The notes below the pieces were generated by a model. That model saw only the letters and a program-made list of their open reading frames with translations, made no database searches and was not told where the DNA came from. A stretch of 33,908 bases of DNA. Origin: a virus. Positions 19,229 through 22,370 of this stretch are shown here, piece by piece. Location: the IMG/VR virus record IMGVR_UViG_3300024520_000291, positions 1 through 33,908 of that record; one strand, written 5' to 3'. The position numbers and the translations under genes were made by a program. Positions within the stretch are counted from its first letter, which is position 1; each line of letters begins with the position of its first letter.

Positions 19229-20203
19229 ATGACAACTGCGCAAGAGCTTTCTACTTCTATCGTTCAAAATGTAGCCCGGGACTATCACAAAAAGGTCCCT
19301 GGTTTCGCAAAAGACACCCTGAAATGGGCCGTTGAAAAGCAACACTTAACCAACCTTCTTACTGGAAATAAGTCACTCCGTGACTGTATCCCCGGATCAG
19401 TTAAGGAGGCCATCTTAAATGCCGGGGCAATGGGGTTATCCTTTAATCCGGCCCGGGCAGAATGTTATTTAATTCCACGTCGAATGTGGCGGGGGAACCC
19501 TCAATCCAAAATAGCGGAGCGACGTGTTGACGGCCCGTTGGTTTGTTATGCGTCTCCATCCTATGTTGGTTTAATCCAACTAGCCGTTAAAACCGGGTTT
19601 GCCCTTATCATTCGAGCACAGGTTGTTTTTCAGGGGGATGCGTTTAGATACTTTGGGCCGCTTAAAGAACCTAAATACGAGATGTGCTTAGGTGGTGAAG
19701 CCAAAACATGGGAAACCGCAATAGGTGTTTATGCCGACTGTAAATTAAAGGACGGAAGTCACGCGGCCGAGTGGATGGATAAGGCAACAATAGAACGGAT
19801 TAGAAGTATGTCTGACAACCCCAAGTCCATTATGTGGAACCCTGACAAGTTGTGGACGGAAGGATGGCGTAAAGCGGTTATTCGGAGAATGTTTAAAACC
19901 ATTCCGGTTGATATGGGCCCTGAGTTGTCACTGGCCGCCAACTTAATGAATCAGGCGGAAGGAATCACAATAGAGGGTGAGGCAGTACACGTTGAAGATT
20001 CCAAAGAACCAACGGTTGAAACAATATCCAAAGGACAAGCGGTTCAGTTACTTGAGTCGGCAGAGATCGCAGGACTTGAATTAAGTACACTGTTAACGGC
20101 GTTTCACGTGGAACGGATTGAAGAGATTCCAGCAAACATGCTCAACACGGTTACTAAAAGGATTGAGGTGTATGCGGATAGAAAGGCAAACCAAACCAAT
20201 TAG
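19229..20203 (+). CDS. RecT family single-strand annealing protein
   Basis: 324 residues. RecT-type annealases coat single-stranded DNA and pair complementary strands during phage recombination and concatemer formation. Family blocks are the central SVKEAILNAGAMGLSFNPA, PLVCYASPSYVGLIQLAVKTG, RAQVVFQGDAFRYFGP and KLWTEGWRKAVIRRMFKTIP, in normal order and at normal length. A less conserved acidic C-terminal third follows. ATG 19229 has AAAAAGGAG six bases upstream. The YqaJ-type exonuclease three genes downstream is its expected partner, which would generate the single strands. Confidence 0.93.
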   Translation: MTTAQELSTSIVQNVARDYHKKVPGFAKDTLKWAVEKQHLTNLLTGNKSLRDCIPGSVKEAILNAGAMGLSFNPARAECYLIPRRMWRGNPQSKIAERRVDGPLVCYASPSYVGLIQLAVKTGFALIIRAQVVFQGDAFRYFGPLKEPKYEMCLGGEAKTWETAIGVYADCKLKDGSHAAEWMDKATIERIRSMSDNPKSIMWNPDKLWTEGWRKAVIRRMFKTIPVDMGPELSLAANLMNQAEGITIEGEAVHVEDSKEPTVETISKGQAVQLLESAEIAGLELSTLLTAFHVERIEEIPANMLNTVTKRIEVYADRKANQTN

Positions 20204-20211
20204 GAGTAAGT

Positions 20212-20481
20212 ATGAAAAAGATTAAATTTGGTATAACGGTTAAAGATGTGGTTACCGGGTTTACGGGCGTGGTCTGTGGACGAGCAAGCTACATAACGGG
20301 GTGTCGCCAGTATCTTGTTTCCCCAAAAGTTAAAGCGGACGGGGAACACAAGTCGGGAATGTGGGTGGACGAGGCCCGTCTTGAGATTTGTCAGGACCTG
20401 GAAAGAATTGTTCTCGCTGAGGAAGTGGAAAAAGCTCCGGTAACGGGGGGCCCGCAGGATTCACCATCGAGAGGGCTGTAA
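20212..20481 (+). CDS. Small SH3-like barrel protein, unknown function
   Basis: 89 residues. The first half (KFGITVKDVVTGFTGVVCG, then YITGCRQYLVSPK and MWVDEARLEICQD) has the turn-rich pattern of a small KOW/SH3-like barrel that is common in short phage proteins. The tail is charged. ATG 20212 follows TAGGAG with good spacing and its stop overlaps the next ATG. It sits between recT and the exonuclease, so a role in recombination or nucleic-acid binding is possible but not shown. Confidence 0.65.
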   Translation: MKKIKFGITVKDVVTGFTGVVCGRASYITGCRQYLVSPKVKADGEHKSGMWVDEARLEICQDLERIVLAEEVEKAPVTGGPQDSPSRGL

Positions 20482-20729
20482 TGGAATTAACTGAACTGTT
20501 AGAAGGTGACGCCCACAATCCAACGGAATTAAGTGAACAGTATTCGAAGGCCTACGATCGGTTTTGTGAGGTGTCCGGAATTAATGGGTTATACACACTG
20601 GCGTTTTTTATGGCGCTTTTGCCTGCGGAACAAAAGGTTTTAAAGCTGTGGATTGAAACCGCTTTTTCCAAAGGGTTTGACAATGGTGTGGACGCCACAC
20701 TGAAACGATGGGAGCAACTAAATGAATGA
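20481..20729 (+). CDS. Unknown 82-residue helical protein
   Basis: Not recognised. It is mainly helical, with an acidic N-terminus (ELTELLEGDAHNPTELSEQY), a hydrophobic middle (YTLAFFMALLPAEQKVLKLW) that is too short and polar-flanked for a sure membrane segment, and a charged C-terminus (DATLKRWEQLNE). It overlaps both neighbours, the upstream gene by one base and the exonuclease by 8 bp, so it belongs to the recombination operon. Confidence 0.6.
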   Translation: MELTELLEGDAHNPTELSEQYSKAYDRFCEVSGINGLYTLAFFMALLPAEQKVLKLWIETAFSKGFDNGVDATLKRWEQLNE

Positions 20730-21429
20730 GGGGCCGGTACTTAAGATTATTGGAAAGTACGAACAAGGCTCCCCGGAATGGATAGAGGTTAGACGGGGGA
20801 TGTTTACAGCATCAGAATTCCATTCTCTTCTAACCGCTCGCCCTGAAACCTTGGAACGAATTAGACAAACCAAACTGGCGGAGTTAAAGGGGGCCGTTGT
20901 GAAAAAACCGTTTACTTCAATCTATACAGAATGGGGTAAGGTTCATGAGGCACAAGGGCGGGCACAGGTTTGTTTGGAATTGGAGGAGCTCGGGGTTGTC
21001 AATTCAAGTGACAAATGCATTGTCCCTGGTTTGGTAATTCAAGAAAACCGATTGTGGGTAGGGGCTTCGGCTGACGGGTTGTTTCTTGAAAAACAGCTTG
21101 GAGTTGAAATTAAATGTCCGTACAAGCAAGATAATCACGTTAATCATTTTAAGCCTCAACCCGGGAACCAATGGATTAATGGAATTCCAAAAAAGTATTA
21201 CACGCAGGTTCAAGGGGGAATGTTGGTTACCGGTTGGAAGTATTGGGTATATGCTTCCTTCGACCCAAGGCTGCTGGTTGACGGACAAGCCATTCCACCA
21301 TTATTTATTAAAATGCTTCGGCGCGATGAGGAGTATATAAAACCGTTGGCCGAAAAGCTTAACTACATTTGGAAATCAATGAACGTTAATTCGGAAGTTT
21401 ATCGACGTAGACACAGGACGGCAGGATAA
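20722..21429 (+). CDS. YqaJ-type (lambda Exo-like) exonuclease
   Basis: 235 residues, close to lambda exonuclease size. It should degrade 5' strands from double-stranded ends to feed RecT. Core motifs of the YqaJ fold are GSPEWIEVRRGMFTAS near the N-terminus, YTEWGKVHEAQGRA (Glu76), GASADGL with Asp118, VEIKCP with Glu129 and Lys131 forming the D-(D/E)XK metal site, and YYTQVQGGMLVT with the conserved Gln pair at 162-164. Start ATG 20722 overlaps the previous gene by 8 bp. All catalytic residues appear present. Confidence 0.93.
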   Translation: MNEGPVLKIIGKYEQGSPEWIEVRRGMFTASEFHSLLTARPETLERIRQTKLAELKGAVVKKPFTSIYTEWGKVHEAQGRAQVCLELEELGVVNSSDKCIVPGLVIQENRLWVGASADGLFLEKQLGVEIKCPYKQDNHVNHFKPQPGNQWINGIPKKYYTQVQGGMLVTGWKYWVYASFDPRLLVDGQAIPPLFIKMLRRDEEYIKPLAEKLNYIWKSMNVNSEVYRRRHRTAG

Positions 21430-22370
21430 TGGGTTGGTATAACTTGGTTAAACACTTTAAGAAGTATCCGGCGGACAAGGCGCCGCTTACGGTTTTGGAC
21501 TTGTTCAGCGGTACTGGTGGTTTCTCGTTGGGCCTTGAACGGGCGGGACTAAAAACCATTGCGTTTTGTGAAATTGAAAATTACCCAACCAGGGTGCTAA
21601 ATAAAAATTGGCCGGAAGTACCAGTATTTCCGGACGTTAAGGAGTTAAACGGACATGAGTTTAAAGGATCAGTTGACATTGTTTGCGGGGGGTTCCCCTG
21701 TCAAGACATCTCCTTCATGGGTTCCGGCGCCGGAATCACGGGCGATCGCTCCGGACTATGGGGAGAAATGTGCAGAGTTATTCGCGACGTTAGACCCAAA
21801 TACGCAATTATGGAAAACGTCTCAGCACTCCTTAATCGAGGACTCGGAGACGTTCTCCGAGACTTGGCCGCGATCGGGTATGATGCGGAATGGTATTGCA
21901 TACCAGCTTCAGCCCTTGGTGCCCCGCACCGAAGGGATCGGATTTGGATTGTGGCCTACCCCGCTGACGAGCAACGGTGGAGCGGAACCGACCAAGGCGG
22001 TGACGGCGGGGGAATACGGGTGGCCGCTGAGAACCGCGGTTGTGGATTCGCTGAAACGGGTTCCAATGAAAATGTGGCCAACTCCACGGGAGTGCGATTA
22101 CAAGGGGTGCGGGCATCGCGGAACGAAAAGCCATCGCCACTGGTTGGGAAAAGGTTATTTAACAGCTACCGCAATGGAGGAAGAAAAAGAGAATGGACCT
22201 CTGAACCCGAATTGGGTCGAGTGGCTTATGGGGTTTCCAACGGGGTGGACCGAATTAAAGCCTTAGGTAACGCGGTGGTTCCACAAATTCCGGAGATGAT
22301 TGGACTTGCTATTCTTAGGTTGGAAGAGGACAAAAAAAGGGCCGGCAGACTTAAACCGGCCCTACTTTGA
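21429..22370 (+). CDS. DNA C5-cytosine methyltransferase
   Basis: 313 residues with C5-MTase motifs: I VLDLFSGTGGFSLGLERAG (22-40, S-adenosylmethionine binding), IV GGFPCQDIS with catalytic Cys91, VI MENVSAL (128-134), VIII APHRRDRIWIVAYP (165-178), a target-recognition part of about 90 residues, and X GNAVVPQI (280-287). Phage versions protect DNA from host restriction or mark it for regulation. The recognition sequence cannot be read. Codons 76-279 also contain a complete second ORF in another frame (21655-22266). The gene ends in a two-hairpin terminator and overlaps the exonuclease stop by one base. Confidence 0.95.
   Translation: MGWYNLVKHFKKYPADKAPLTVLDLFSGTGGFSLGLERAGLKTIAFCEIENYPTRVLNKNWPEVPVFPDVKELNGHEFKGSVDIVCGGFPCQDISFMGSGAGITGDRSGLWGEMCRVIRDVRPKYAIMENVSALLNRGLGDVLRDLAAIGYDAEWYCIPASALGAPHRRDRIWIVAYPADEQRWSGTDQGGDGGGIRVAAENRGCGFAETGSNENVANSTGVRLQGVRASRNEKPSPLVGKRLFNSYRNGGRKREWTSEPELGRVAYGVSNGVDRIKALGNAVVPQIPEMIGLAILRLEEDKKRAGRLKPALL
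21655..22266 (+). CDS. Nested ORF inside the methyltransferase gene (WPTP-type protein)
   Basis: A complete 203-residue frame lies within the C5-MTase gene, shifted by one base. It starts at ATG 21655 with AAGGAG ten bases upstream. Its blocks GGSPVKTSPSW, SETWPRSGMMRNG, two WPTP motifs (100-103 and 141-144) and the ending NPNWVEWLMGFPTGWTEL match a pattern I recall from stand-alone phage proteins of unknown function. The DNA for WPTP is the DNA for MTase motif VIII (VAYPAD), and that for WLMGFPTGWTEL also encodes VAYGVSNGVDRI. Either both proteins are made from one locus, or the WPTP pattern seen elsewhere is itself an MTase reading-frame shadow. No function can be assigned. Confidence 0.5.
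   Translation: MSLKDQLTLFAGGSPVKTSPSWVPAPESRAIAPDYGEKCAELFATLDPNTQLWKTSQHSLIEDSETFSETWPRSGMMRNGIAYQLQPLVPRTEGIGFGLWPTPLTSNGGAEPTKAVTAGEYGWPLRTAVVDSLKRVPMKMWPTPRECDYKGCGHRGTKSHRHWLGKGYLTATAMEEEKENGPLNPNWVEWLMGFPTGWTELKP
22338..22363 (+). terminator. Hairpin at the end of the methyltransferase gene
   Basis: Perfect 8-bp stem AGGGCCGG/CCGGCCCT with a 10-base loop, inside the last codons of the gene. It is followed at once by a second, longer hairpin. It has no T-run of its own, so it probably assists the next element. Confidence 0.5.

Follow-up and report, generated by a model that had tools for sequence, protein, structure and literature searches.

The C5-cytosine methyltransferase gene described here very probably encodes a two-subunit enzyme in overlapping frames, in which a catalytic polypeptide (alpha) is read in the main frame and a nested polypeptide (beta) provides the variable target-recognition region and motif IX. 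The gene is located in the window, i.e. the whole stretch of 33,908 nucleotides that was analysed, which stems from an IMG/VR virus record. The coding conservation of both frames, the identity of motif IX, the complementary motifs of the two products, the constraint on each frame and the shuffling of cassettes were observed by computation. In ordinary C5-methyltransferases the target-recognition region and motif IX form the small domain, and the alpha/beta pair appears to divide the enzyme along the line between the large and the small domain.

From these data we infer how such an enzyme would be translated and assembled, what would determine its specificity and how it could act against restriction. 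The main-frame product would comprise the catalytic large domain with motifs I to VIII, followed by motif X, which is reached via a long disordered stretch. Translation of beta would start internally from its own Shine-Dalgarno site. With tandem “PTP” cassettes for target recognition and with motif IX, beta could represent the counterpart of the small domain, and its binding to alpha would result in one active methyltransferase with a specificity given by beta. Splits of C5-methyltransferases between motif VIII and the target-recognition domain (TRD), both natural and artificial, are described as complementing efficiently (PMC5944983). If beta cassettes are swapped or stacked, another DNA sequence would be methylated, and this methylation may protect the phage DNA against varied host restriction.

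On balance we favor the view that these genes form a large and mostly unrecognised class of phage C5-methyltransferases, split exactly along the two structural domains on the same DNA, with a constant catalytic scaffold and an exchangeable array of nested specificity cassettes, which could be retargetable or multispecific via recombination inside the overlapping gene. To our knowledge, it is very rare that two frames overlapping at length on one strand specify the two halves of a single enzyme, and the present case can be tested in hundreds of phages and prophages. It would explain why many phage “methyltransferases” are seemingly devoid of motif IX and of a domain for target recognition; it also puts right the labelling of PHROG 1008 and leads to the prediction that the main product is inactive by itself. 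Provided that specificity resides in the cassettes, one could infer the methylation targets and exchange them.

Layout and coding conservation of the nested frame

The nested ORF begins with ATG and is enclosed entirely by the methyltransferase ORF at a shift of +1 (Table 1). A TAA in the +1 frame separates the AAGGAG from this ATG, so that the ATG at position 21655 is the earliest possible start. An earlier note on this DNA had pointed out the 203-residue frame, one base out of phase and with its own AAGGAG and ATG, and direct reading of the coordinates confirms it. The double readings it reported also share the same bases, namely VAYGVSNGVDRI and WLMGFPTGWTEL as well as VAYPAD and WPTP (in full IVAYPAD and LWPTPLT). 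The stretch VAYPAD, which had been taken for motif VIII, is not the motif itself but follows motif VIII, HRRDR.

A RecT-like annealing protein and a RecE-like exonuclease are encoded immediately upstream of the methyltransferase (window positions 19229-21429). The stop codon of the exonuclease gene overlaps the methyltransferase start (TAATG), which suggests translational coupling. This overlap, together with the RecT-like gene further upstream, places the methyltransferase gene in a recombination module.

Table 1. Features of the overlapping methyltransferase gene and their positions in the window.
Feature	Position	Strand	Basis
Alpha, C5-methyltransferase catalytic polypeptide, 313 aa; motifs I-VIII and X, no recognisable motif IX	21429..22370	+	PF00145 match; phmmer/profile match to M.HhaI and ordinary C5-methyltransferases over about residues 16-181 only
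Alpha large-domain core, motifs I-VIII, residues 20-181	21486..21971	+	AlphaFold pLDDT mostly above 90; Foldseek to M.HhaI
Shine-Dalgarno AAGGAG of the nested ORF	21639..21644	+	Direct reading; 10 nt before ATG
Beta, nested ORF, 203 aa, +1 relative to alpha	21655..22266	+	Coding tests across relatives; PHROG 1008, E=2.6e-28
Beta variable cassette 1 (PTPLTSNGGAEP...KMW)	21955..22077	+	Related cassettes in other combinations, e.g. L340, L383, L292
Alpha tether, residues 187-277, predicted disordered	21987..22259	+	pLDDT below 50 throughout; overlies nested variable region and motif IX
Beta variable cassette 2 (PTPRECDYKGCGHRGTKSH...), runs into motif IX	22078..22218	+	Cassettes up to 55% identical in L313, L073, L340
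Beta motif IX, GPLNPNWVEWLMGFPTGWTEL	22195..22257	+	Same motif aligns to M.HhaI 269-286 in L065; best match of the beta profile
Alpha motif X region, RIKALGNAVVPQIPEMIGLAIL and helix, main frame	22251..22349	+	pLDDT 81-94 from residue 281; substitutions peak at alpha position 3

The open +1 run in the window gene comprises 205 codons, compared to a mean of 92 in synonymous-codon permutations (p = 0.0016, i.e. 0.16% of trials) and with p = 5e-5 in usage-based resampling; among the other large ORFs checked in the window the longest +1 run is 92 codons. With the methyltransferase sequence as sole query 80 viral relatives were retrieved. A nested homologue is present in 78 of them, in agreement with the earlier claim that a second product is kept, and in 75 of the 80 the +1 ORF is longer than in the relative's own synonymous-codon permutations, individually significant in each case. 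The +2 frame has little excess (9/80). As a negative control for protein similarity this frame is not independent, since codons fixed by the +1 frame raise the +2 frame too, and tests of codon identity and codon position were therefore used in its place. For 27 ordinary C5-methyltransferases taken from bacterial genomes, the +1 runs have the null value as their median, with one of 27 below 0.05. This comparison among relatives carries far more weight than the permutations of the single gene.

At conserved amino acids, synonymous codon identity amounts to 1.02 times the expectation upstream of the nested ORF, 1.75 times inside and 0.76 times downstream. A check for synonymous constraint across homologues had been proposed in the earlier note. 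The codon identity peaks inside the nested ORF at motif IX, where it reaches up to 2.8 times the expectation. For 127 of 129 relatives, none of 100 codon shuffles reaches the similarity that the +1 frame has to the nested protein of the window. A start codon with an upstream Shine-Dalgarno match of at least 5 nt was found in 37% of 281 relatives, that is in a minority only, compared to 10% of codon-permuted controls.

The length of the +1 run, the codon identity, the +1 similarity and the enrichment of Shine-Dalgarno/start pairs argue that the nested ORF is a real protein-coding gene throughout the family. A chance open frame was rejected on the basis of the shuffles, the 75 of 80 relatives, the single ordinary methyltransferase out of 27, and the codon identity. 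Family loci occur in genomes of many bacterial phyla, and members are found in named phages of Mycobacterium, Paenibacillus, Synechococcus, Klebsiella and others; as judged from sequence, the hidden overlapping arrangement is present in over 300 phage and prophage genes.

Two decayed copies with both frames interrupted were observed, one in Mycobacterium phage Jinglebell (L005) and one in an E. coli prophage (L350). In the Jinglebell record, hypothetical genes on the opposite strand are annotated at the decayed copy.

Proposed division of the enzyme between the two frames

The PF00145 match to alpha (E=3.6e-42) covers residues 21-181 only. Alpha possesses the catalytic motifs I, IV (PCQ), VI (ENV), VIII and X, and the columns PCQ, EN, RxR and GN are invariant across relatives. 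No motif IX was found in the alpha chain, and the matches to M.HhaI and ordinary methyltransferases end at about residue 181. Foldseek aligns alpha to M.HhaI over 165 columns at an rmsd of 1.8, where the large domain alone superposes. The AlphaFold model predicts that the alpha product folds only as large domain plus motif X.

To locate the constraint on either frame a codon-position test was performed on 98 independent gene pairs, where position 1 of an alpha codon is position 3 of a nested codon. In the upstream single-frame part the changes fall to 18/12/70% on alpha positions 1/2/3, like in a normal gene. Across motifs IV-VIII the values are 30/16/54%, as expected if both frames matter. 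Between motifs VIII and IX they become 65/19/16% (CI for position 1 58-73%), and this skew to the third positions of the nested frame occurs in 16 out of 16 informative pairs. Past motif X the changes are back at alpha position 3, with few counts. In the variable region the nested identity is higher than the main-frame identity in 33 out of 38 alignable pairs.

With the substitutions of this interval concentrated on third positions of nested codons, the main coding frame for the target-recognition region and for motif IX is the nested one, and the alpha frame is a passenger there. The disorder predicted by AlphaFold for alpha residues 187-277 agrees with this result. It had been suggested in the earlier note that the nested protein arose by overprinting a methyltransferase. 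The constraint on both frames across motifs IV-VIII is consistent with this, but over the variable region and motif IX it is the nested frame that dominates.

The target-recognition domain might instead be located in the variable region of alpha, with beta giving motif IX only, as described for M.EcoHK31I. The predicted TRD of EcoHK31I is placed in alpha in PMC3404938, and alpha stays open across the variable region in 330 loci. We consider this assignment improbable for the present family: it is opposed by the bias of substitutions toward nested third positions past motif VIII (65%, with all 16 informative pairs in agreement), by the higher nested identity in the 33 of 38 pairs and by the predicted disorder of alpha residues 187-277.

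The C-terminus of beta, conserved across the family as LNPxWVEWLMGFPxGWTxL, is by sequence comparison the methyltransferase motif IX that is absent from the main frame. In a monomeric relative (L065) the same motif is found in the methyltransferase frame, where phmmer aligns LNPNWVEWLMGFPVGW with LHPRECARVMGYPDSY of M.HhaI and motif X comes next. This alignment spans M.HhaI residues 269-319 and contains RKLHPRECARVMGYP as motif IX, then FGNSVV as motif X; the stretch has a low score alone and is collinear with the strong core match. A profile of the beta family yielded three weak matches in the PDB, all of them C5-methyltransferases at motif IX (E 0.6-1.6), and its best match to ordinary C5-methyltransferases is again at motif IX, weak alone (E 0.045).

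The single beta protein had no match in Pfam, NCBIfam or PDB sequences, and for its N-terminal part (SETWPRSGMMRNGIAY) no known homologue was found in these searches. AlphaFold predicts beta alone poorly, with a mean pLDDT of 58 and order only around residues 44-55 and in the C-terminal motif IX segment, which speaks against the two-subunit reading; a small-domain fold of beta is putative. PHROG 1008 matches beta at residues 5-201 (E=2.6e-28) and is matched by 98 of 98 aligned family members; it represents the nested frame and carries the label “DNA methyltransferase”. This label misleads annotation. PHROG 26627 and 27243 likewise match the nested frame.

The nested variable region mostly contains one to six PTP-like units and up to eight, with one to eight in nearly all loci, and the median cassette has 40 amino acids. 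Relatives of cassette 2 in L313, L073 and L340 stand at other positions and in other counts, and there are gene pairs with 98% identical cores but only 32-34% identical variable regions. Such shuffling resembles the TRD exchange and the multi-TRD methyltransferases of Bacillus phages (PMC12707154), and by analogy each cassette may read a DNA target.

Survey of motifs IX and X in the family

The frames of motifs IX and X were surveyed in all fetched loci, which form a redundant set and include the window's own copy (L148). In 330 loci the main frame holds the core and motif X, with motif IX at +1, and in 310 out of 316 distinct genes with motif IX at +1 this frame is open from the core through motif IX. 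The motif pattern missed 49 loci; on visual inspection, most of these have a divergent motif IX in the +1 frame. L055, L065 and L067 carry motif IX in the main frame, and their nested frame is interrupted; L051/L052 resemble them in combining a short nested frame with an IX-like main-frame segment, GEAFMHFPTGW. The loci L309/L351, L190, L363, L413 and L305/L385/L389 have a main ORF that ends past motif VIII, and their nested frame supplies motif IX as well as motif X. Each system thus has a single motif IX, be it in one frame or the other, which fits two products that together make up one enzyme. The nested protein is most likely, on sequence grounds, the beta subunit of a split methyltransferase. 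L047 was considered as a split methyltransferase and rejected; a simple frameshift with respect to L065 is the more likely cause of its appearance, and it was not counted.

Several individual loci deviate from these arrangements. A second, tandem copy in L267 (912-1952 of the site extract) has an intact nested ORF of 347 codons and a methyltransferase frame without motifs I and IV and with a broken motif X; it is possibly a spare specificity subunit. In L266 (6362-7372), on one contig only, a single-chain methyltransferase has an EWLMGFP segment after motif X in the same frame, which looks like a rearranged or permuted enzyme. In relatives, the DNA of motif IX and of the stretch before motif X can be read as EWLMGFPxGWTDL at +1 and as RVAxGVPxRVDRL in the alpha frame. 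In the split loci these peptides are consecutive in one frame, as if by a frame-shifted duplication or collapse.

The loci L309, L305 and L190 would yield a complete methyltransferase by one +1 shift after motif VIII, which could speak for a programmed frameshift that fuses the methyltransferase core to the nested C-terminal part, the nested frame having no initiation of its own. We regard such a fusion as highly unlikely, because in the common arrangement the shifted product would lose motif X and because it would leave unexplained that openness and conservation of the nested frame extend far upstream of motif VIII. The enrichment of Shine-Dalgarno/start pairs also stands against it.

Slightly less probable still is that beta acts on its own as a regulator, inhibitor or counter-defence protein and merely overlaps the methyltransferase gene, even though its N-terminal part has no known homologue and viruses commonly have overlapping accessory proteins. 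Beta was never found without the methyltransferase in the loci checked, its C-terminus is motif IX, and loci with a main-frame motif IX have a broken beta frame. Neither the viral nor the genome searches yielded a free-standing beta homologue: all 67 loci classified from the nested-protein viral search and all 80 from the genome search are nested at +1 in a methyltransferase. Apparent free-standing homologues were rejected as second nested copies, contig ends or frameshifted copies.

The stand-alone phage proteins mentioned in the earlier note, and the homologues outside methyltransferase genes it proposed to search for, thus did not emerge from the viral and genome searches. The family that fits the motifs it named is PHROG 1008, itself this nested frame. 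Among the functions put forward in the note, a partner was the right guess. No evidence points to an inhibitor, and counter-defence holds only in the ordinary sense that phage methyltransferases protect phage DNA.

Finally, an open +1 frame as a by-product of the amino acid and codon constraints of the methyltransferase is practically refuted, as synonymous shuffles of the window gene do still average 92-codon runs but 75 of 80 relatives exceed their own shuffles where ordinary methyltransferases do not, the synonymous constraint ends at the ends of the nested ORF, and the codon-position test is in disagreement as well.

Comparison with known systems

The principle of the proposed alpha/beta enzyme is already known from M.EcoHK31I. 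Its beta subunit is, reportedly according to the original papers, encoded in an alternative frame inside alpha, which would be a likeness to the window and its relatives, where the smaller polypeptide is in the other frame inside the larger gene. M.EcoHK31I (YGGCCR; Lee, Kam and Shaw 1995) is described as having motifs I-VIII and X in the large subunit and motif IX in a smaller polypeptide (PMC3404938), and the window has the same distribution. It differs in that its TRD is predicted in alpha in that description (PMC3404938), whereas the codon positions and the predicted disorder place that of the window in beta, and in that it belongs to a bacterial restriction-modification system, while the present family is from phages and prophages. 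Searches of plasmids and of E. coli yielded no record identifiable as EcoHK31I. As the reported TRD position differs and EcoHK31I was compared by description only, we state that the window works like M.EcoHK31I and do not file it as a member.

M.AquI (CYCGRG) is described as naturally split after motif VIII into a catalytic and a recognition part (PMC3404938). The rare loci L309, L305, L190, L363 and L413, whose second protein has motif IX as well as motif X, resemble an overlapping-gene counterpart of M.AquI. In contrast, the window and the great majority of its relatives keep motif X in alpha, with beta inside the alpha gene.

The multispecific C5-methyltransferases of Bacillus phages combine several TRDs within a single chain of activity, i.e. 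one enzyme (PMC12707154, citing Trautner 1996). They share with the window that they are phage-borne, have a variable region of repeated units and are probably directed against many restriction enzymes. The array of the window is however on a separate polypeptide, and its cassettes are putative TRDs.

With M.HhaI the window shares the large domain, on which alpha superposes, and motif IX, which the beta C-terminus matches through L065. M.HhaI and M.HaeIII are monomeric with all motifs in one chain, and ordinary enzymes are without a conserved +1 ORF.

The same nested ORF is recorded in the Paenibacillus phages Shelly and Sitara as “g55 / g59 internal gene”. The labels in PHROG 1008, Shelly and Sitara are “DNA methyltransferase” or “hypothetical”, with the subunit role unstated, and in the open-access literature we found no report on a nested ORF in phage C5-methyltransferases. 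What the present family adds is its breadth in phages, the evidence for the TRD in the nested protein, the monomeric and split relatives that make the logic visible, and the exchange of cassettes. Compared to the precedent of M.EcoHK31I, the novelty lies in the scale, the split by domains and the shuffled beta cassettes.
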